A stretch of 50,557 nucleotides of DNA from Verrucomicrobiales bacterium (GTDB lineage: Bacteria; Verrucomicrobiota; Verrucomicrobiia; Verrucomicrobiales; V1-33). The stretch lies in NCBI GenBank assembly GCA_018003315.1, contig JAGNEJ010000029.1:1-50557 (forward strand), read 5' to 3'. The position numbers were made by a program, and so were the translations under genes. Numbering within the stretch: the stretch's first letter is position 1; every line of letters begins with the position of its first letter. Shown in pieces: positions 23,210 through 50,557 of this stretch. Under the pieces are notes generated by a model. That model saw only the letters and a list, made by a program, of their open reading frames with translations, made no database searches and had not been told where the DNA came from.

Positions 23210-24457
23210 TCACTCCACCGCAGGAAGCCATTCCCCGGAGAGGAACCGGACAATTTCCACCTGCCGATCCTCCTTGGCACCTTCCGGATAGCGAACCTCC
23301 AGCACCGCGGCGTGGGTCTCCTCCAGGCTGGTCAGCAGGCGCAGCTCCACGCCGGCTTCGGAATCCTGCGCAGCATAGGCAAACAGGCGGCGGTCCACCA
23401 GCGGGTATTCGAGTTCAAAACACTGATATTTCTGAGAGTCGGACCACTGGTAGTTGTAATAATTGCCGCGACTGACCCTGACATGAAGAATGGTGGGGGT
23501 GGTGGATTTTTCGGCAATGAACTTCTCCATGTGCTCAGCCTGGTAGAGGGTGCTGGAACGCCAGTCGATTTTGTAGGTTTTCCCATCCTGGACGAGGTTG
23601 AAGAAAAGATCTTTTTTCAGCGAGGGAATTTCGTAATGCACGCTGACGATGCCATGCCCGGTCATGCCGTGCCGGAGCACGCCGTCGGTGATCGGCTTGT
23701 CACTGTGAGTGCGGTAGTATTCCTGCAGAAGCGGGGTAGCGGCGGCGGAATCGCGCAGGTAGCTGCTTTTGCGAATCCAGCCGTCGGCGCGCAGAAACTC
23801 TCCCACCACTTCACCGGCACGCATGACTTCCAGGTCCATTCGGGACGGTGGCGGCGGGGCCTCGTCGCCGGAAAAATGCCGGACCGCCGCCGGTGTTCCG
23901 CGGTCGGTCATCAGAAATACAAACACTCCGATGATGCCGACCAGGGCGATGAAAAATCCGATCAGGGAACCGCGTTCGAGCCTGCCGTTGTCATCAAAGA
24001 ACCAGCGGGTGAGGGACGATGTTTGCAGGAAGACTTCGAGGGGATCCTGACGGAAATCCCGGCTGGTAGCGTGAGTTTCCTCCAGCAACCGCTCCCAATT
24101 GTCCGTGAACCGGGCCTGCACCGCCTGGGAAAAGGCAGCGGCGGCTTCCTCATGGCGCGGCTGTTCAATTCCGCCGTGCGATTCCAGAAAGGCGAAATAG
24201 CGTTTGCGCCACTGGTGGATGGAGGCCGGCGCAATGCCGAGCTGCCGGGCAGCGGCCTCCACAGTGATTCCGGTTTCCACCACCATTTTGACCGCCTCGC
24301 GAACGCGGTCCGAATCATCCTGCGGCGTTGCCGCGGGTTGGATCAGCCGCTGCTGAATCAACTCCCGCGGATTTTGCTCGAACGCATCCGCCAGATTCCT
24401 GCGGGGAGCCACGTCGGCTTCCGCAGAGCCAGCCGGAGAAGAAATCTCATCCATCAT
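23210..24457 (-). CDS. Membrane protein with cytoplasmic HTH and shared unknown C-terminal domain
   Basis: Unrecognised protein of 415 residues. Residues 48-92 (DRVREAVKMVVETGITVEAAARQLGIAPASIHQWRKRYF, read in part) form a helix-turn-helix like that of transposase OrfA or Tnp_1 proteins. A single membrane segment follows at about 166-188 (LIGFFIALVGIIGVFVFLM). The rest (about 205-415) is a domain also found in the neighbour at 24474-26093 and, more distantly, in the protein at 48937-50557: YYRTHSD, YKIDWRSS, VRVSRGNYYNYQWSDSQKYQCFELEYP, and LEVRYP..AKEDRQVEIVRF. The layout resembles a membrane-bound one-component regulator of ToxR type, which is inference. The start at 24457 lies 16 nt after the upstream stop; an alternative ATG is at 24454. 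The two genes are surely one operon. Confidence 0.7.
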   Translation of the reverse strand: MMDEISSPAGSAEADVAPRRNLADAFEQNPRELIQQRLIQPAATPQDDSDRVREAVKMVVETGITVEAAARQLGIAPASIHQWRKRYFAFLESHGGIEQPRHEEAAAAFSQAVQARFTDNWERLLEETHATSRDFRQDPLEVFLQTSSLTRWFFDDNGRLERGSLIGFFIALVGIIGVFVFLMTDRGTPAAVRHFSGDEAPPPPSRMDLEVMRAGEVVGEFLRADGWIRKSSYLRDSAAATPLLQEYYRTHSDKPITDGVLRHGMTGHGIVSVHYEIPSLKKDLFFNLVQDGKTYKIDWRSSTLYQAEHMEKFIAEKSTTPTILHVRVSRGNYYNYQWSDSQKYQCFELEYPLVDRRLFAYAAQDSEAGVELRLLTSLEETHAAVLEVRYPEGAKEDRQVEIVRFLSGEWLPAVE

Positions 24458-24473
24458 GCCTGGGGGAAAGGGC

Positions 24474-26093
24474 TCAAGGTGGGCTCGCCGGTGCTTTTGC
24501 GGCGTCACGTTCGTAATACCAAGAAGTGTGCACGATTTTTTCGATTTCCACCTGATCCCGTGAGATGGCCTCGGCTGGATACCTGACCTGCAGAATCAGG
24601 TTGGCTTCCAGCAGCAACTGTTTCACGAGGTCGTCGTAGAGCGCGGAGTCGCGCTTCACGTAGCCGATGAGTTCGAAGGTGTCATTGCCCGGATAGGTGA
24701 GTTGGTAGGATTGCCAGACTTTGTTGTCGGAGAAGCCATGGTTGTAGTAGTCATACGGGTTCACCCGGACCCTAAACGACATGGGCTCCCTGGGCTGCTT
24801 GATTTTGTAGTCGTAGAGTTCCATGGGCTGGTAGCCCTCGGTGGTCTCCCAGTCCAGCAGATAGCGGAAGGTGCCGTCCGTCTGGGGAATTTCCTCCACG
24901 GCGGCAAATTTCTGAACATGGTTTTCGCCGATGCGCAGGGCCAGGTAAACGTAGAATGCCTTTCCGGCGGTGCCTTTTCTTGCATCCTCCACTTCATGAA
25001 CCGGCATCGCGGCATCCGAGTGCGTTTGATACCATTTCTCCATCAACGGGGCCACCGCCTCGGCCCGCCGTACGAATTTGAGTTTCTCCTTCCAGTTGGG
25101 TGCTCCATAAAATGCCCGAACGACCTTTTCGGACTCAAGGATCGCATCCTGGGTGACCTGCACCCGGGTGGCTGCTTCCGCCTCGCTCAGCAGGCCGACG
25201 GGAACTGGATCCGACGGACGAACCTTTTCATAAAAAATCCTGGCCAGCCAGTAGAGACCAATGCCGGCCACCCCGGCCAGCAGTCCGAGGATGCCCCAAC
25301 GAACTCCCACGGTCATGCGGCGGAAAAACAACTGCACGCCCTGCACCAGCCTGCTTTTGCGGATGCGCTTGATCCGCTTCATGGATTTTCCATCGACGTC
25401 CACCCGGGTGACATACTCGCGGGATTCGCTGGCAATGACTTCCTCCGGAAGAATGCCGGAAGATGGGGCCGCCCATTCATCCGCGGCCAGTTCCGCTTCA
25501 GGAATGTGGTCGAGCACGGTATCCCAATCCGCCAACCGCACCTCGTCCTGCTCGAGACGCCGCCGCCGTCTCACCCGCAGCCGATCCAGACCGATGCCCT
25601 TGAGCTTTGCCTTGAATTCCTCGGAGAGTTCGTGATCGCCTGCGGTCACAATGCGCTTTTCCTCGCGGGGAACCGTTTTGGCCGATTCAAAACTCTTGGG
25701 CTTCACCTCGGGAAGACGCGACGGCTGCGAAAGGTCGGGCGGGGCGGCTTTTTCTTCCTGCAGCGCCGGTGTCGAGCGCTGTTTCGTCGGTGGGAGTGCG
25801 GCGGGACGAAAGGTTTTCGCTGGAGCCGCGGGCGGTGCCGCCTCACTGGGTGCCGGTGCCGGAGCAAGCGGTGGCGCTTTGAATACCGGATGGTTCGCCT
25901 CGTTTTCCAGCCCCCTCGCCGGCGCGGTTGGTTGCGGAATCTCCATGGCGATCGGCGCTTTGCACGACGGGCAGACGAGCGCCTTTCCGGCGAGCACGGT
26001 TTCCCGGCGGGCCTTCATGGTTTTTCCGCAGGCCGGACAGTCCGCGAGAATCCAGTTCAGCTGACCCGGAGTGGATGGAGTTGATGCCGACAT
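24474..26093 (-). CDS. Membrane protein with N-terminal zinc ribbon and shared unknown C-terminal domain
   Basis: Unrecognised protein of 539 residues. The N-terminus has a zinc ribbon (Cys19, Cys22, Cys41, Cys44 in CPACGK and CPSCKAP), followed by about 110 residues rich in Pro and Ala. A basic patch KAKLKGIGLDRLRVRRRRRLEQ and a membrane segment near 263-283 (GILGLLAGVAGIGLYWLA) follow. The C-terminal region (about 325-530) is homologous to the downstream gene: WYQTHSD, LLDWETTEGYQPMELYDY, RVRVNPYDYYNHGFSDNKVWQSYQLTYP, and LQVRYPAEAISRDQVEIEKI. Topology predicts the ribbon inside and the C-terminal domain outside the membrane. It lies 111 nt downstream of the pseudopilin operon on the same strand, so it may belong to that transcript. 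No function can be assigned. Confidence 0.7.
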   Translation of the reverse strand: MSASTPSTPGQLNWILADCPACGKTMKARRETVLAGKALVCPSCKAPIAMEIPQPTAPARGLENEANHPVFKAPPLAPAPAPSEAAPPAAPAKTFRPAALPPTKQRSTPALQEEKAAPPDLSQPSRLPEVKPKSFESAKTVPREEKRIVTAGDHELSEEFKAKLKGIGLDRLRVRRRRRLEQDEVRLADWDTVLDHIPEAELAADEWAAPSSGILPEEVIASESREYVTRVDVDGKSMKRIKRIRKSRLVQGVQLFFRRMTVGVRWGILGLLAGVAGIGLYWLARIFYEKVRPSDPVPVGLLSEAEAATRVQVTQDAILESEKVVRAFYGAPNWKEKLKFVRRAEAVAPLMEKWYQTHSDAAMPVHEVEDARKGTAGKAFYVYLALRIGENHVQKFAAVEEIPQTDGTFRYLLDWETTEGYQPMELYDYKIKQPREPMSFRVRVNPYDYYNHGFSDNKVWQSYQLTYPGNDTFELIGYVKRDSALYDDLVKQLLLEANLILQVRYPAEAISRDQVEIEKIVHTSWYYERDAAKAPASPP

Positions 26094-26204
26094 GGGTTGC
26101 AGGGGGGACGACAAAGCGGATCCAGTATAAACGCGCCAAGGGACTGGCGGCAACCACGACACGAAAGAAAAACAGGCGTTCCGTCAGGCAGGACTCCAGC
26201 GAAA

Positions 26205-27134
26205 TTACCGTCCGCGGCCACCTCCCCCGCCGCGCCCGCCACGGCCGCCACCCGGAGCATTGCCAAATCCCTGGTTGCCGCTGCGGCCTCCGCCACCGGG
26301 ACCGAAACCCCCGCGGTCACCCCGTCCGCCCCGGCCCGGAATGTTTCCATTGCTGCCCGGCGGTCCGCCGCCGGGATTGATGTTGATGGGAGGAACGCCG
26401 CCGGGCGGACCACCGCCGCCGGGCGGAACCCCTCCGGGTGGCGGCTGGGTTCCACCGGCACCACCTGTGAATTGCTGGGGATTGACCATGACGGGCACCC
26501 AAAAAATGAGCCGCAGCGGCTCGGAACCATCGGCCAGTTCCATTTCCATCCGGATGAGTGAGGGGCGTCGGGTGTTTTCCAGCGGCCAGTCGAAGGCCCA
26601 ATCCTGGGCGGTGTCGTCATAAAAGGACCAGATGAGGGAGCGGATGCCGTCCATCAACTCCAGCCTGCGCACCACGGGCAGACCGGTGTTTCGGTCCGTG
26701 GCGGTTTCATCGAGTCGGCCATTTTCGAAATCCTCCGTGCGGTCCTGGTCGAGGTAGAGCACCACGGCGGTGAAATTTCCCACCCGGTTGCGTTCAATGC
26801 GCAGAATGACCGACTTCGATCCCGCTGAAACCCCGGACCAGGAAAAGGCCAGCGGGTAGTCTTTCAGGTAGAGTTCACTGCCTCCGTCGCCACCGCGGGG
26901 CAGCAGCAGGTTGAGGCGTGCATTGCCGGGAACCTGTTCCAGATTTCTGCGGATCAACTCCACGAACGCATTCTGGCGCATGGAGATTTCCTGCTGTTCG
27001 GTCACCTCCCGGGAAACAATCAGCGCACCGCGCTGCACCGCAAATACTCCGCCCACCAGCAGCGCCAGCAATGCAATCGCCAGCATCACCTCGATGAGCG
27101 TGTAGCCGCGGTTCTGACGGGACGGAAATTTCAT
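26205..27134 (-). CDS. gspJ: GspJ-like minor pseudopilin with Gly/Pro/Arg-rich tail
   Basis: A 309-residue type II secretion pseudopilin. The prepilin peptidase motif is RG-YTLIEVMLAIALLALLVGGVF, with the cleavage glycine, Glu at +5 and the hydrophobic helix. The globular part to about residue 222 resembles GspJ: it is long, with a segment LELMDGIRSLIWSFYDDTAQDW similar to the conserved W.F.D region. Residues 225-309 are an unusual low-complexity tail, first PPG repeats, then GRGGRGDRGG-type RGG repeats ending in GRGR. The pseudopilin role is to form the tip of the pseudopilus with H, I and K. It is last in the G-H-I-J cluster, 9 nt after the preceding gene. Confidence 0.75.
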   Translation of the reverse strand: MKFPSRQNRGYTLIEVMLAIALLALLVGGVFAVQRGALIVSREVTEQQEISMRQNAFVELIRRNLEQVPGNARLNLLLPRGGDGGSELYLKDYPLAFSWSGVSAGSKSVILRIERNRVGNFTAVVLYLDQDRTEDFENGRLDETATDRNTGLPVVRRLELMDGIRSLIWSFYDDTAQDWAFDWPLENTRRPSLIRMEMELADGSEPLRLIFWVPVMVNPQQFTGGAGGTQPPPGGVPPGGGGPPGGVPPININPGGGPPGSNGNIPGRGGRGDRGGFGPGGGGRSGNQGFGNAPGGGRGGRGGGGGRGR

Positions 27135-27143
27135 GGCATGGGC

Positions 27144-27611
27144 TCACCGGACCCCCGGTGGAATGGCCGGTCCGCCCTGGGTCCGGTAGAGCGGCTGGTA
27201 GCGCCAGATTTCGGCATCCATCATTTCCGGTTCTGTCTTCCAGTCCACATGATAGAAGGCCTGGACATAGATACGGTAGAGCTGCGTCACTTCCTGCCCG
27301 TCCTCGTTGGTGATTTGCTTCATCTGCTCAACCTGCGTCACGGTCCAGACGCCGAGTTCGTCCGCTTCGGTGGTTTGCGTCTGTCCGTCCCATTCGGCGA
27401 GGTTGGTCAGCTTGCTGATTTCCGTCAGTTTGGACTGCAGGCGCATCTGCATGCGGGCGTCCATCTGGGATTCCACGGCCATCTGGGACGTTCTGGCCAG
27501 CGCCCGCACCAGCGGCACCACGGCCATGCCAAAAAGTGTCAGGGCCAGCAGCATTTCCAGCAGGGTAAAGCCGCGGCTCCGGACGTTTTGCAGTGCCAGG
27601 GTACTATTCAT
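27144..27611 (-). CDS. gspI: GspI-like minor pseudopilin
   Basis: A 155-residue pseudopilin. The N-terminus MNSTLALQNVRSRG-FTLLEMLLALTLFGMAVVPLV carries the prepilin cleavage site, Glu at +5 and the membrane helix. The rest is short, with a WTVTQVEQM strand and a C-terminal WRYQPLYRTQGG. Its place between H and J, and its size, fit GspI, a minor tip pseudopilin of type II secretion. The chosen ATG (27611) overlaps the stop of the previous gene in ATGAATAG, a coupling arrangement; the longer frame to 27677 lies inside that gene and is not credible. Confidence 0.72.
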   Translation of the reverse strand: MNSTLALQNVRSRGFTLLEMLLALTLFGMAVVPLVRALARTSQMAVESQMDARMQMRLQSKLTEISKLTNLAEWDGQTQTTEADELGVWTVTQVEQMKQITNEDGQEVTQLYRIYVQAFYHVDWKTEPEMMDAEIWRYQPLYRTQGGPAIPPGVR

Positions 27612-28131
27612 CGGATTCCTCCCGCTGCACCCCTGCGGTGAGGGGGTCAAACTGCACTTCGGTCCACCTGTTTTCACGCTCCACCCGGAACATCAGCGGC
27701 TCGCAAATGCCGCTGTGCTTGAACACCCAGTAGTCCGGCCGGGGCGTCTGCCATTTTTCTTCGCCGAACCGCCGCACCGCAAAGCTGATGTCCGCATCGA
27801 AGGTTTTGACCTCGATGCCAGAGTCCCGGCCCAGCTGCTTGTCCGCCGCATCCAGAAACTTCTGGTCCTCGCTGGCTGCAGCCTGTTTTGGGCGCAATTC
27901 CAGCGACCGCGGCTTGATGACGATTTCCCAGTCCCGCTGTTCGGCGATCGCCCGGTGCCACGCTTTTTTCGCCAGCACCTTCATTTCATCCAGCGGACGG
28001 CGCAGTTTGGCCGAGTCATCCCACGCCCCCATGCCCTTGGCGCCAATACCCACCAGCAGCACTGCGATCGCCATCACGATCATCAGTTCCAGCAGGGTAA
28101 AGCCGCCGCGGTTGTCGGGGGTGCGCTTCAT
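27604..28131 (-). CDS. gspH: GspH-like pseudopilin
   Basis: A 175-residue pseudopilin with MKRTPDNRGG-FTLLELMIVMAIAVLLVGIGAKGM, the prepilin peptidase site, Glu at +5 and the hydrophobic helix. The soluble part contains RPLDEMKVLAKKAWHRAIAEQRDWEIVI, similar to the conserved helix and strand of GspH/FimT proteins (family members often read ...A.L..AR..A...). The start at 28131 gives a short basic leader; the ORF to 28245 overlaps the upstream gene. It lies 10 nt after gspG and overlaps gspI by 8 nt, so it is inside one operon. Confidence 0.75.
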   Translation of the reverse strand: MKRTPDNRGGFTLLELMIVMAIAVLLVGIGAKGMGAWDDSAKLRRPLDEMKVLAKKAWHRAIAEQRDWEIVIKPRSLELRPKQAAASEDQKFLDAADKQLGRDSGIEVKTFDADISFAVRRFGEEKWQTPRPDYWVFKHSGICEPLMFRVERENRWTEVQFDPLTAGVQREESDE

Positions 28132-28141
28132 GCCTCCATGC

Positions 28142-28552
28142 TCATTCCTCCCAGTTGCCGACGTCATCGCCGGTGCCGTCCGCACCGTCGTCGCCGATGG
28201 AGTAGAGGTCGAACTTTTCTTTGCTGCGCTTGTTCGGCACGGCATACATGTAATCGTTGCCCCAGGGGTCCTTCATCATCGCCTCGGTGATCAAACCTTT
28301 GTCCATCAGTTGGCGCAGGCTGTTGGGCAGGCGTCCAGAGTGGGTATTCTGCCAACTTAAAACGAAACCGCTGAGGTTGCCGATGTCCGCCTTGGCTGCG
28401 GTCACCTTGCCCTGGCGCAGAATCGCCGGGCCGACTTTGGTTCCGGCGACGATGAGCAGGCCGATGATGGCCAGCACCAGCATGAGTTCCATAAGCGTAA
28501 AACCTCCCTGGCGCGCAGTGCGCAGGGCCTTCGGCAGTGTGGTGTATTTCAT
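28142..28552 (-). CDS. gspG: GspG-like major pseudopilin
   Basis: A 136-residue major pseudopilin of type II secretion. After a basic leader comes GG-FTLMELMLVLAIIGLLIVAGTKVGPAI, with the prepilin site and Glu at +5. The C-terminus has the GspG hallmark: DPWGNDYMYAVPNKRSKEKFDLYSIGDDGADGTGDDVGNW, containing the calcium-binding aspartates of the family. It is first of the four-gene G-H-I-J cassette, 137 nt after recF on the same strand. The genes for the secretion ATPase, inner-membrane platform, secretin and pseudopilin K are not in the window, so the machine must be completed from other loci. Confidence 0.88.
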   Translation of the reverse strand: MKYTTLPKALRTARQGGFTLMELMLVLAIIGLLIVAGTKVGPAILRQGKVTAAKADIGNLSGFVLSWQNTHSGRLPNSLRQLMDKGLITEAMMKDPWGNDYMYAVPNKRSKEKFDLYSIGDDGADGTGDDVGNWEE

Positions 28553-28689
28553 GGTGTCGAAAAATTGGGAAGTGGATTGGTGGAGGGGCCGACAGGGGGT
28601 CCGGCACGACCCAACCTGTCCCGCATTCATTCTTTCGTCAACGAAGCTGCCCGCCGCGTTCAAACAAACCACCCGCCGCCGCCGCATTC

Positions 28690-29763
28690 TCAGAGGGGCT
28701 GCACAACCCCTTCCGCCACCCGGAAAACAGCCTCCGGGATGAATTCCTCCTCCACCCAGCCCGGATGGGTGGTGGTGATGAGTCGCTGCGCCCCGCACGG
28801 CAGGGCGGAAAGCAGGGCGTTGCGCCGGAGCGGGTCCAGTTCGCCAAAGATGTCGTCCAGCAGCAGCAATGGGGCCGCGCCGCGGGCGGTTTGCAGCAGG
28901 GTAGCCTGCGCCAGCTTCAGCGCCAGGGCCAGGGTGCGCTGCTGTCCTTCCGAGGCAAATGGTGCCGCAGGGCGTCCGTTGAGTTCCAGCAGCAGCTCAT
29001 CGCGGTGTGGTCCGGTGAGGGTGACGCGCCTCCGCAGTTCGGACTCGCGCATCCGGCGCAGAGCGGCGGCAAAGTCCTCCCCGGCGCTGGTGTGGTAGGT
29101 GAGCGAAAGCTCCTCGGCCTGCCCGCTGATCCTCCCGTGGCCTGCGGCGGCGTGCGGCTGAATTTGGGCGGTCATTTCTCTGCGCAGCCGCATCAGGATT
29201 TCCCCGTGCTGCACCAGCAAGGTGCTGTAGGCATCCACCTGGCGCCAGTCGGGCACGGCGTCGCGTTTGAGCAGGAAATTGCGGGTCCGCAAGGCCTTTT
29301 CGTAGGCGGCGTGGGCCGGGCGATATTCCGGGAAAAGCTGGGTGCCCAGGAAATCGAGGTAACGCCGCCGGGCATCGCTGGCGCCGGTCACCAATTCCAG
29401 GTCCCCGTTTCCCATCCATACGACCAGACTGCCGGCAGCGAGATAGTCAGCGGTTTTGGCGGTTGCCGCGCCATCCACGCTCAGGGTGCGGACGCCGTTG
29501 GCAAAATCCTGCCGGAGTTCCCGTCCCGAAACGGTCCCACCCAGGCCGAATTCGCTGCCACCAAACTTCACCAGCTCTGCAGGCCGGGACGTCCGCGGGC
29601 TGTGCAGGCGCAGCAGCATGCAGATTGCTTCCAGCACGGAGGTCTTGCCCTGGGCGTTGTCTCCGATGAACAGCGCCGTTCCGTCCGGCAGCGGGCAGTT
29701 CAGCGAGGCAAAGCAGCGGAAATTCCGCAGGCGCAGCGAGGTCAGGGGCATGGCGGGAGCCAT
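28690..29763 (-). CDS. recF: DNA replication and repair protein RecF
   Basis: SMC-like ATPase that helps load RecA at gaps with RecO and RecR. The N-terminus SLRLRNFRCFASL is typical. Walker A reads GDNAQGKTSVLEAI, the ABC signature SEGQQRTLALALKLAQ, and Walker B LLLLDDIFGELD, followed by ITTTHP. TGPHRDELLLELNG is another RecF block. At 357 residues it is of normal length. The second Met (29751, MPLTSLRL) is an alternative start. It is not next to dnaA, dnaN or gyrB as in many bacteria; here it follows a DUF3820 gene and precedes the pseudopilins. Confidence 0.94.
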   Translation of the reverse strand: MAPAMPLTSLRLRNFRCFASLNCPLPDGTALFIGDNAQGKTSVLEAICMLLRLHSPRTSRPAELVKFGGSEFGLGGTVSGRELRQDFANGVRTLSVDGAATAKTADYLAAGSLVVWMGNGDLELVTGASDARRRYLDFLGTQLFPEYRPAHAAYEKALRTRNFLLKRDAVPDWRQVDAYSTLLVQHGEILMRLRREMTAQIQPHAAAGHGRISGQAEELSLTYHTSAGEDFAAALRRMRESELRRRVTLTGPHRDELLLELNGRPAAPFASEGQQRTLALALKLAQATLLQTARGAAPLLLLDDIFGELDPLRRNALLSALPCGAQRLITTTHPGWVEEEFIPEAVFRVAEGVVQPL

Positions 29764-48936: not shown

Positions 48937-50557
48937 CTATTCGGCTTCCCGCCGCCAGACCCAACGCAAAACCCGGGTCAGCTCGACATGCTGTCCGCCG
49001 CCTGCATGGGGAACGTGGGAAAAGGCGGCCACGGCAAAATATTTCTTATCCCAGTAGATTTTCTGAGTCACCATGCGTCCAAGTTCGGACTCCTTGGGGA
49101 CGAAGGCAAAGAAGGGATCGTCATCCGGATTGGGGGAGGTTGCCTTGAGGCATTCAAAGTGGTCGATTTCGGGCACGTCGGATTCAAAATAATGCGCCCG
49201 CTGGAGCACCACGTAAAAGGTTTGGGCGGCGGCCTGCGGGTTGGGCCAGAACCGGGCCATCGCCCGGTCTTTGCATTGCACAAACGCTTCCCAGTCGATT
49301 TTATAACCATCCGGCGTTTCCTCTGTGCTGACGGGAAACCCCTGTTCACGGTCCGGTGAACGAACCCGGAACAGATAGGCGCGCCCATTGGTGGCCGGAA
49401 TCCGGGCACCGGAATCGAAAACGATGCCGTCAAATGGCACCTGCTGCGGCTTTTGGCCGGAGTAATAGGCCTGAATGGCCGGGGCGAGCGTTTTGGGGTT
49501 GTGCACCAGTTCGAGGATGCGGTCCACTGAGTTTGCCTCCAGGAGATGCTGGACCGCTTCCCGGGCCTTTTGCTGTTCGACACCTTCCGCACCAGCGGGT
49601 GAAGCATCGGGCGGCGCATCCGCTTCGACAGGAAGCTCCGGAAGCTCCAGCGCCGCCCGCACCTCCATCGTGGGCTTCACACTGGCAACCAACGGAGCCA
49701 CCGGGGCAGCGTCACCCAGCGACGGAAGCGGCGGACTGGCATCCAGGGTGGTGCGCTGCGGATGGTCCTTGGTTAAATCGGTATTGGGAAATGGATCCGG
49801 CGGGCTGGTGCTGGCTTTAGCCACCCCATCGGCGGGAGCTTTTTTGACGGCATCGACCGGACTTTTTTCTTGGGGAAGCGGCGGTTTCGGTTCCGGCGAT
49901 GGGGGCGCAGCGGTTTCCACCGTGGAGGGAACGGGCAAGGATGACGGTGCGGCCGAACCAGCAGCCACAGGAGGTGGACGGACGGGTGCTGGCGTGGGCG
50001 GCGATGCGGGAAGGGATTCCAAATGGAGCCGGGAGGAAGCCCGCTTCTGAGGCAACCGCCCCTGCCACCAGTCGAGGATCGACTCAGAATAATACCAGCA
50101 CAAGCCCGCCCCGACGCCGAGCAGGAGCAAGGCCATCAGTTTTGGCCAAATTCGCGAGGGAGTTGCATTCGTTTCGGTTCGAAAAACCGGCGCTGGAGCA
50201 ATGTCCAGTCTGGGCTGTTCTACCTCGGGGATCTGAAAGGAATCCGCCTCCACGGACGCAGAAGGAAGCGCCGACGCCACCTTGGCAGCAGCCGACTCCA
50301 GAGCGGGCTGAACTCCTGGAGACACCACCCTAATCACAGGCAATTCCGTGGCAGAAACCGAATTTTCAGCGCTCAGGGGCGTGGCGGTTTCCTGATGCTG
50401 CTCGCCCAACACCACCGGCGGGGAAGCCGGAACGGTCACAGGAACGGAGGCCGATTGCGCTGCGGCGAATTGCCAAATTTCCTCCGGTGAGAGCGTGGAA
50501 AGGTCCTCGGTTGGGTGTGTTTCCGGCTGAGCAGTAGTCGAAGGTGCAATTGGAATC
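48937..50557 (-). CDS. Membrane protein with Pro-rich linkers and shared unknown C-terminal domain (5' end cut by window)
   Basis: Unrecognised protein; the frame is open to the window edge, so the N-terminus is missing. About 540 residues are visible. The first part is low-complexity, with LSPEEIWQFAAAQ near its start. A single membrane segment follows (LMALLLLGVGAGLCWYY, about 50130-50090). Next is a long Pro/Ser/Ala linker, then a helical stretch SVDRILELVHNPKTLAPAIQAYY and a domain with YKIDWEAFVQCKDRAMARFW and YFAVAAFSHVP. This matches, more distantly, the C-termini of the proteins at 23210 and 24474 (YKIDW/LLDWE; LAPAIQAYYS against VAPLMEKWYQ). The GTG at 50439 is not needed as start. 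It ends 102 nt before the azurin-like gene. Confidence 0.7.
   Translation of the reverse strand, partial: IPIAPSTTAQPETHPTEDLSTLSPEEIWQFAAAQSASVPVTVPASPPVVLGEQHQETATPLSAENSVSATELPVIRVVSPGVQPALESAAAKVASALPSASVEADSFQIPEVEQPRLDIAPAPVFRTETNATPSRIWPKLMALLLLGVGAGLCWYYSESILDWWQGRLPQKRASSRLHLESLPASPPTPAPVRPPPVAAGSAAPSSLPVPSTVETAAPPSPEPKPPLPQEKSPVDAVKKAPADGVAKASTSPPDPFPNTDLTKDHPQRTTLDASPPLPSLGDAAPVAPLVASVKPTMEVRAALELPELPVEADAPPDASPAGAEGVEQQKAREAVQHLLEANSVDRILELVHNPKTLAPAIQAYYSGQKPQQVPFDGIVFDSGARIPATNGRAYLFRVRSPDREQGFPVSTEETPDGYKIDWEAFVQCKDRAMARFWPNPQAAAQTFYVVLQRAHYFESDVPEIDHFECLKATSPNPDDDPFFAFVPKESELGRMVTQKIYWDKKYFAVAAFSHVPHAGGGQHVELTRVLRWVWRREAE

Follow-up and report, generated by a model that had tools for sequence, protein, structure and literature searches.

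Three genes on the minus strand of a 50,557-nucleotide stretch of DNA from a Verrucomicrobiales bacterium, the whole of which we call the window, encode membrane proteins whose C-terminal regions, judged by sequence comparison, are homologous and make up a single family; we name them here by their lowest coordinates, 24474, 23210 and 48937. The ectodomain family is new, and the kind of protein that carries it, a bitopic protein with an outer domain and an inner module, is known. Among the genomes sampled, the family is near-universal in, and restricted to, the Verrucomicrobiales, and we tentatively read its members as bitopic envelope sensors or adaptors of an order-specific family, some of them working with PBP1A.

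The open reading frames lie where a preliminary description of this DNA had put them, with the correction that those at 24474 and 23210 overlap by 35 bp. Their features, with the evidence for each (model 1 being an AlphaFold2 prediction of the 24474 ectodomain and model 2 a prediction of the full-length 23210 protein), are as follows.

23210..24508, minus strand: gene of the helix-turn-helix (HTH) member, 432 aa (open reading frame, Pfam, BLASTP, ortholog conservation, model 2)
24182..24319, minus strand: HTH, transposase/homeodomain-like, residues 64-109 of the HTH member (Pfam HTH_Tnp_1, E 6.5e-7; HTH_23, E 4.7e-6)
23906..23971, minus strand: transmembrane (TM) helix of the HTH member, about residues 180-201 (hydropathy)
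23534..23842, minus strand: predicted NTF2-like half of its ectodomain (alignment to the modelled zinc-ribbon member; element order in model 2)
23225..23545, minus strand: predicted OB-fold half of its ectodomain (structural alignment with the AsnRS OB domain)
24474..26162, minus strand: gene of the zinc-ribbon member, 562-aa open reading frame, a start near 26096 being equally likely (open reading frame, BLASTP)
25956..26039, minus strand: zinc ribbon CPAC...CPSC, residues 42-69 (motif; NCBIfam zinc_YnfU_fam, E 1.1e-5, below cut-off)
25248..25310, minus strand: TM helix of the zinc-ribbon member, about residues 285-305 (hydropathy)
24837..25160, minus strand: predicted NTF2-like half of its ectodomain, model 1 residues 1-108 (AlphaFold2 and structural alignment)
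24513..24836, minus strand: predicted OB-fold half of its ectodomain, model 1 residues 109-216 (structural alignment; conservation)
48937..50556, minus strand: gene of the third member, its frame running on into the contig end, which leaves the N-terminus missing and the inner part incomplete (open reading frame)
50089..50151, minus strand: TM helix of the third member
49594..50088, minus strand: Pro-rich spacer of the third member, on the outer side between helix and ectodomain
48940..49593, minus strand: family ectodomain of the third member (profile, E 2.7e-75; BLASTP homology)

The relationship between the C-terminal regions, proposed earlier from shared sequence blocks, is borne out by whole-protein BLASTP, in which the HTH protein matches the zinc-ribbon protein at E 6e-20 over 269 columns and the 48937 protein at E 8e-9. 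Since the zinc-ribbon and 48937 proteins match each other at only E 0.006, 48937 joins the family through the HTH protein and through a profile; this one profile recovers all three genes from the genome at E < 1e-65, the three window rows having helped to build it, so that the pairwise BLASTP values are the independent test. All three blocks of the preliminary description can be located, namely YYRTHSD, WYQTHSD and YYSGQKP for the first, KIDW, LLDW and KIDW for the second and VEIVRF, VEIEKI and VELTRV for the last, but the first, of YY..HSD type, is not conserved in 48937. To these can be added a conserved DYYNxxFSD block, missing from that list, which falls in the loop between the first two OB strands.

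Each of the three proteins has a single hydrophobic segment, in keeping with the one membrane helix ascribed to it before. The 23210 protein runs from a disordered N-terminus with an FEQNP motif through the HTH and a juxtamembrane NWER...FLQTS stretch to one TM helix and the ectodomain; the HTH, recognised earlier by eye and now matched by Pfam, appears in model 2 as three helices of low confidence. The zinc ribbon of 24474 likewise holds on its motif, the ribbon models of Pfam and NCBIfam matching below cut-off only. The Pro-rich part of 48937, in contrast, had been taken for a cytoplasmic module, but it comes after the membrane helix and before the domain and is thus an outer spacer. Orthologs of 48937 in two related genomes (L114, L135) have no ribbon in their inner part. 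Their N-termini start with a glycine-zipper-like hydrophobic stretch, and very long Pro/Ala-rich regions lie on both sides of the helix.

This architecture was surveyed across 127 non-redundant members from 50 genomes. Exactly one membrane segment precedes the domain in 118 of the 127 and none has a segment in or after it; a median of three residues separates the end of the domain from the C-terminus, a ribbon lies on the inner side in 85 members, and long Pro-rich spacers (19% Pro) occur in 23. The distribution of positive charges favours an N-in orientation in 56 of 85 and opposes it in 16. That the domain would be extracytoplasmic is further argued by rare members in which a probable lipoprotein anchor, an HTH or a kinase is swapped in: L159 carries a lipoprotein-like signal (LNSC) on the family domain, L168 is a fusion of the domain with DUF7133/HEAT/cytochrome c, and the two sequences are independent signs of domain export. 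In genome G032, L158:6691-8670 (+) encodes an intact-looking Ser/Thr kinase (HRDIKPEN, DFG; Pkinase, E 5.9e-51), a TM helix and the family domain, the kinase part matching the PknB model at 4e-80, below that model's whole-protein cut-off. The same genome also has L158-related paralogs of lipoprotein-like (L159) and ribbon (L157) type. The idea of a shared outer domain combined with different inner parts stands, and their range is broader than the window alone shows: a ribbon, an HTH, a Ser/Thr kinase, a probable lipoprotein anchor or no module at all.

No named domain had been recognised in the shared region, and we find none either: the ectodomain has no match above cut-off among Pfam and NCBIfam models or PDB sequences, and literature searches found no account of the family. 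Its fold, by contrast, proves to be predictable as familiar. Model 1, built from five alignment rows, has a mean pLDDT of 83 and a pTM of 0.74, and its first half shows the element order HHH EEEE with good confidence, which places this predicted model, by fold only, in the NTF2-like superfamily, whose mark is a strongly curved mixed beta sheet with helices packed against it. For residues 1-111 the best match is PBP5 of E. faecium, in its N-terminal NTF2-like domain (Z 10.0, rmsd 2.8, 95 residues); PBP2a, Pgp2 and TcpC (3ub1) align with this half as well, as do many NTF2-like chains at Z 8-10 and rmsd of about 3; no sequence similarity to the MecA_N-type NTF2 domain was detected. Residues 109-216 resemble the OB domain of TtNRS (Z 9.3, rmsd 3.5, 94 residues), and the five-strand barrel with a helix between strands 3 and 4 that marks the OB fold is found, as EEE H EE, in both models. 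Model 2 is poor overall (pLDDT 58.5); a comparison of C-terminal folds, proposed earlier as a check, nevertheless gives the same order of elements in both, with lower confidence in the NTF2 half of model 2, for which no NTF2 match is among the matches listed, and a match of its OB half to the AsnRS OB domain (Z 10.2, rmsd 2.9, 93 residues; VIA-align). Folds were assigned half by half, Foldseek with the full chain of either model giving no match at E < 0.001. The ectodomain is accordingly predicted to be an NTF2-like and an OB domain in tandem, each fold being common and the tandem in this family new. Among its conserved positions, mainly aromatic or structural, neither a pocket nor a set of catalytic residues is evident.

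In the source genome, a protein search that starts from the 23210 domain gives ten loci, and a ten-row profile raises this to twelve paralogs, of which the weakest, a C44 match at E 7.7e-4, is no more than probable; a contig search with the single 24474 domain matched L053 only. This count, which the preliminary description had suggested making together with the inner modules, comes from six-frame profile searches, and at least one CxxC...CxxC ribbon lies before the helix in nine of the twelve, an HTH in one and neither in two. Genes in relatives were called by a simple codon-usage caller, so their starts may be misplaced. Across the order, 173 of 192 sampled genomes and all 41 genera have the family, at 1 to 25 copies per genome, a number that varies between related genomes; 16 of the 19 genomes without it are small (2.0-2.7 Mb) and belong to one genus, g5. 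All matches in the phylum sample (240 genomes) and the class sample (189) fall within the Verrucomicrobiales, with none, at the sensitivity used, in the roughly 210 and 155 genomes of these samples outside the order. Members in G314, G369, G276, G032, G207 and others contain one in-frame stop codon, and may be pseudogenes or assembly errors.

At least nine genomes of f1, the family of the source genome, retain the zinc-ribbon/HTH tandem of the window, with differing flanks. The f1 orthologs of 23210 share the FEQNP motif, the HTH with its W/R/Y recognition-helix pattern and the juxtamembrane stretch, and across families f1, f3 and f4 there are conserved ortholog groups that share their ribbon signature. 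The domain tree places f3 proteins in the 24474 clade (ultrafast bootstrap 99) and the f1 HTH clade as the sister of that clade (ultrafast bootstrap 100), which suggests that the pair arose by duplication. The two proteins would work as a pair, perhaps as a hetero-complex. Four pseudopilin-like genes lie in a run just upstream (26205-28798, minus strand). A link of the pair to type II secretion was considered and rejected, this adjacency being local, because the genes beside the pair are different ones in relatives (superoxide dismutase, ispE, regulators).

Most paralogs are without a conserved neighbour, but some are linked to a cell-wall gene. In 15 genomes from nine genera (five of family f2, four of f3), a gene for PBP1A is followed in the same direction by a zinc-ribbon member touching it or at most 64 bp away, and in most of them a methyltransferase gene of Methyltransf_28 type diverges from the PBP1A gene. 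The linked protein, a class A PBP, has both a transglycosylase and a transpeptidase domain. The next gene in f2 is usually a conserved one with the motif FAEIGAGQE, and in f3 a second family member follows, which in G035, G305 and G355 groups with the window's 24474 (ultrafast bootstrap 99). In G369 the pair behind PBP1A is a zinc-ribbon gene and then an HTH gene whose product matches 23210 at E 3e-13 over most of its length, HTH included, although in the domain tree this protein falls outside the f1 HTH clade; G314 has an HTH gene that begins behind the linked member and runs into the contig end. PBP1A is not adjacent to family members in f1 (the source genome included), f4 and several f3 genomes read. 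A source-genome paralog on C120 groups with a PBP1A-linked f2 protein (bootstrap 92), and an NlpC/P60-like gene, L075:8522-9292 (-), which scores below cut-off (E 0.024) but has the DCSGF motif, starts at the stop of the C120 paralog. The PBP1A linkage in f2 and f3 points to the cell wall. All 192 order genomes have PBP1A, and the reduced g5 genomes keep it with no family member, so PBP1A does not need the family.

Several neighbours were recorded in passing. A gene with the motif YGTFAEIGAGQE, or one close to it, lies directly after the family member in f2 and f6 genomes (L072:7999-9387 (-), L189:6398-7807 (+)) and recurs at L064, L065, L066, L162, L184, L188 and L190-L192; it has no NCBIfam match and, in Pfam, a weak cytidylyltransferase match only. 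An exported helical protein of about 270-350 aa is conserved beside one family subgroup in four f1 genomes (L077, L121, L126, L134); it has no Pfam or NCBIfam match, and no function could be drawn from it. The tRNA-modification genes miaA, mnmA and mnmE and the rplM-rpsI genes, which flank some members, were judged to be housekeeping context.

Our preferred reading, of envelope sensors or adaptors some of which work with PBP1A, would have the shared C-terminal part exported, its NTF2-like domain first and its OB-fold domain second. This ectodomain would bind a periplasmic partner, in at least one lineage most likely the class A synthase PBP1A or its product, and the variable N-terminal part in the cytoplasm would relay or localise the effect, through a zinc ribbon serving as a protein-binding tag in most members, an HTH in 23210 and a kinase in one. 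The analysis establishes the homology, the architecture and the taxonomic range, the folds as predictions, and the existence of exported variants and of the operon-like PBP1A linkage in other families; we infer the contact with PBP1A or peptidoglycan, the direction of the signal, the function of the ribbon and a cell-wall role kept by the window pair, which is without the linkage. Likeness to NTF2 and OB folds carries no information on the ligand. That the family consists of order-wide membrane adaptors which, with an NTF2-OB ectodomain, swappable inner modules and up to 25 copies per genome, couple the periplasmic state of peptidoglycan synthesis by a class A PBP to the cytoplasm is a rather doubtful proposition.

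It is less probable again, in our estimate, that these proteins are membrane-bound one-component sensors like ToxR or CadC, reading a periplasmic signal and acting on DNA or transcription through the HTH or ribbon, with the PBP1A linkage incidental. The Pfam-level HTH match, the recognition-helix pattern kept in f1, the many paralogs per genome, which suit many signals, and the outer-sensor arrangement of L158 are consistent with this; against it, the HTH is seen in no members beyond a single orthologous group and a few genes of f3, the ribbon stands alone in most, and the PBP1A linkage recurs in nine genera. A membrane HTH, moreover, need not bind DNA: RodZ, a bitopic protein of the elongasome, has an XRE-type HTH that binds MreB instead (PMC6946637). 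RodZ and 23210 have in common a cytoplasmic HTH, one TM helix, a folded outer beta domain and a tie to cell-wall synthesis, whereas the 23210 HTH is transposase/homeodomain-like with no match to a RodZ model and its ectodomain is, by model, NTF2-OB. The HTH of 23210 may therefore bind DNA or, by analogy with RodZ, a protein, and the one-component regulator suggested earlier is one option.

We consider it unlikely, too, that the family provides structural scaffolds like GltJ or VirB8, in which the ectodomain builds or docks on an envelope complex and the ribbon recruits cytoplasmic parts, with no signalling. One TM helix and an NTF2-like ectodomain are typical of such proteins, TcpC being among the structural matches, the long Pro-rich spacers could span the periplasm and the tandem pairs suggest hetero-complexes; yet copy number swings from 1 to 25 in related genomes with no accompanying gene cluster, and the kinase and lipoprotein variants are more easily reconciled with a binding domain than with a fixed scaffold. 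VirB8 and TcpC share with the family a short inner part, one TM helix and an NTF2-like outer domain, and lack its OB half and zinc ribbon; no conjugation, type IV secretion or other secretion genes were recognised beside members in the neighbourhoods read. GltJ, of gliding motility, likewise has an inner zinc ribbon, Pro-rich linkers and one TM helix, all shared with the family, which is without the TonB-like end, and the NCBIfam gliding_GltJ model finds one paralog only, through the linker region (E 0.055; 12.5 bits against a cut-off of 450). Finally, that these are lineage-specific paralogs under weak or dispensable selection, common folds drafted for unrelated small tasks with no unifying mechanism, would fit their fast divergence (about 20-30% identity between paralogs), mostly unconserved neighbourhoods and absence from reduced genomes, but is highly improbable given a family found in every genus sampled, ribbon signatures constant across f1, f3 and f4 and the conserved operon-like order with PBP1A.

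Among cell-wall proteins, the adaptors we favour compare in part with several known systems. The fold closest to the first half, MecA_N of PBP2a and PBP5fm, also sits on the outer side directly after a membrane anchor, but the family has an OB fold next and no transpeptidase. The PknB/PASTA receptor kinases share the order kinase, TM helix and outer domain with L158, which has the NTF2-OB domain in place of PASTA repeats. LpoA and LpoB are lineage-restricted partners of class A PBPs, for which their authors expected unrelated counterparts in other phyla (PMC3060616); a lineage-restricted gene association with a class A PBP is likewise seen here in two families, though the f1 and f4 genomes read do not show it. 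The Lpo proteins occur only in gamma-proteobacteria and are lipoproteins of the outer membrane, whereas the present family is bitopic in the inner membrane with inner modules and has one probable lipoprotein (L159).

The family is nameless in the libraries searched, and the cell-envelope biology of its host order has been little studied. Its operon-like order with PBP1A raises the question of whether class A PBPs may be controlled by inner-membrane adaptors rather than by outer-membrane lipoproteins, and the kinase, HTH and ribbon variants form a natural module-swap set with which to ask what signal the ectodomain would read.
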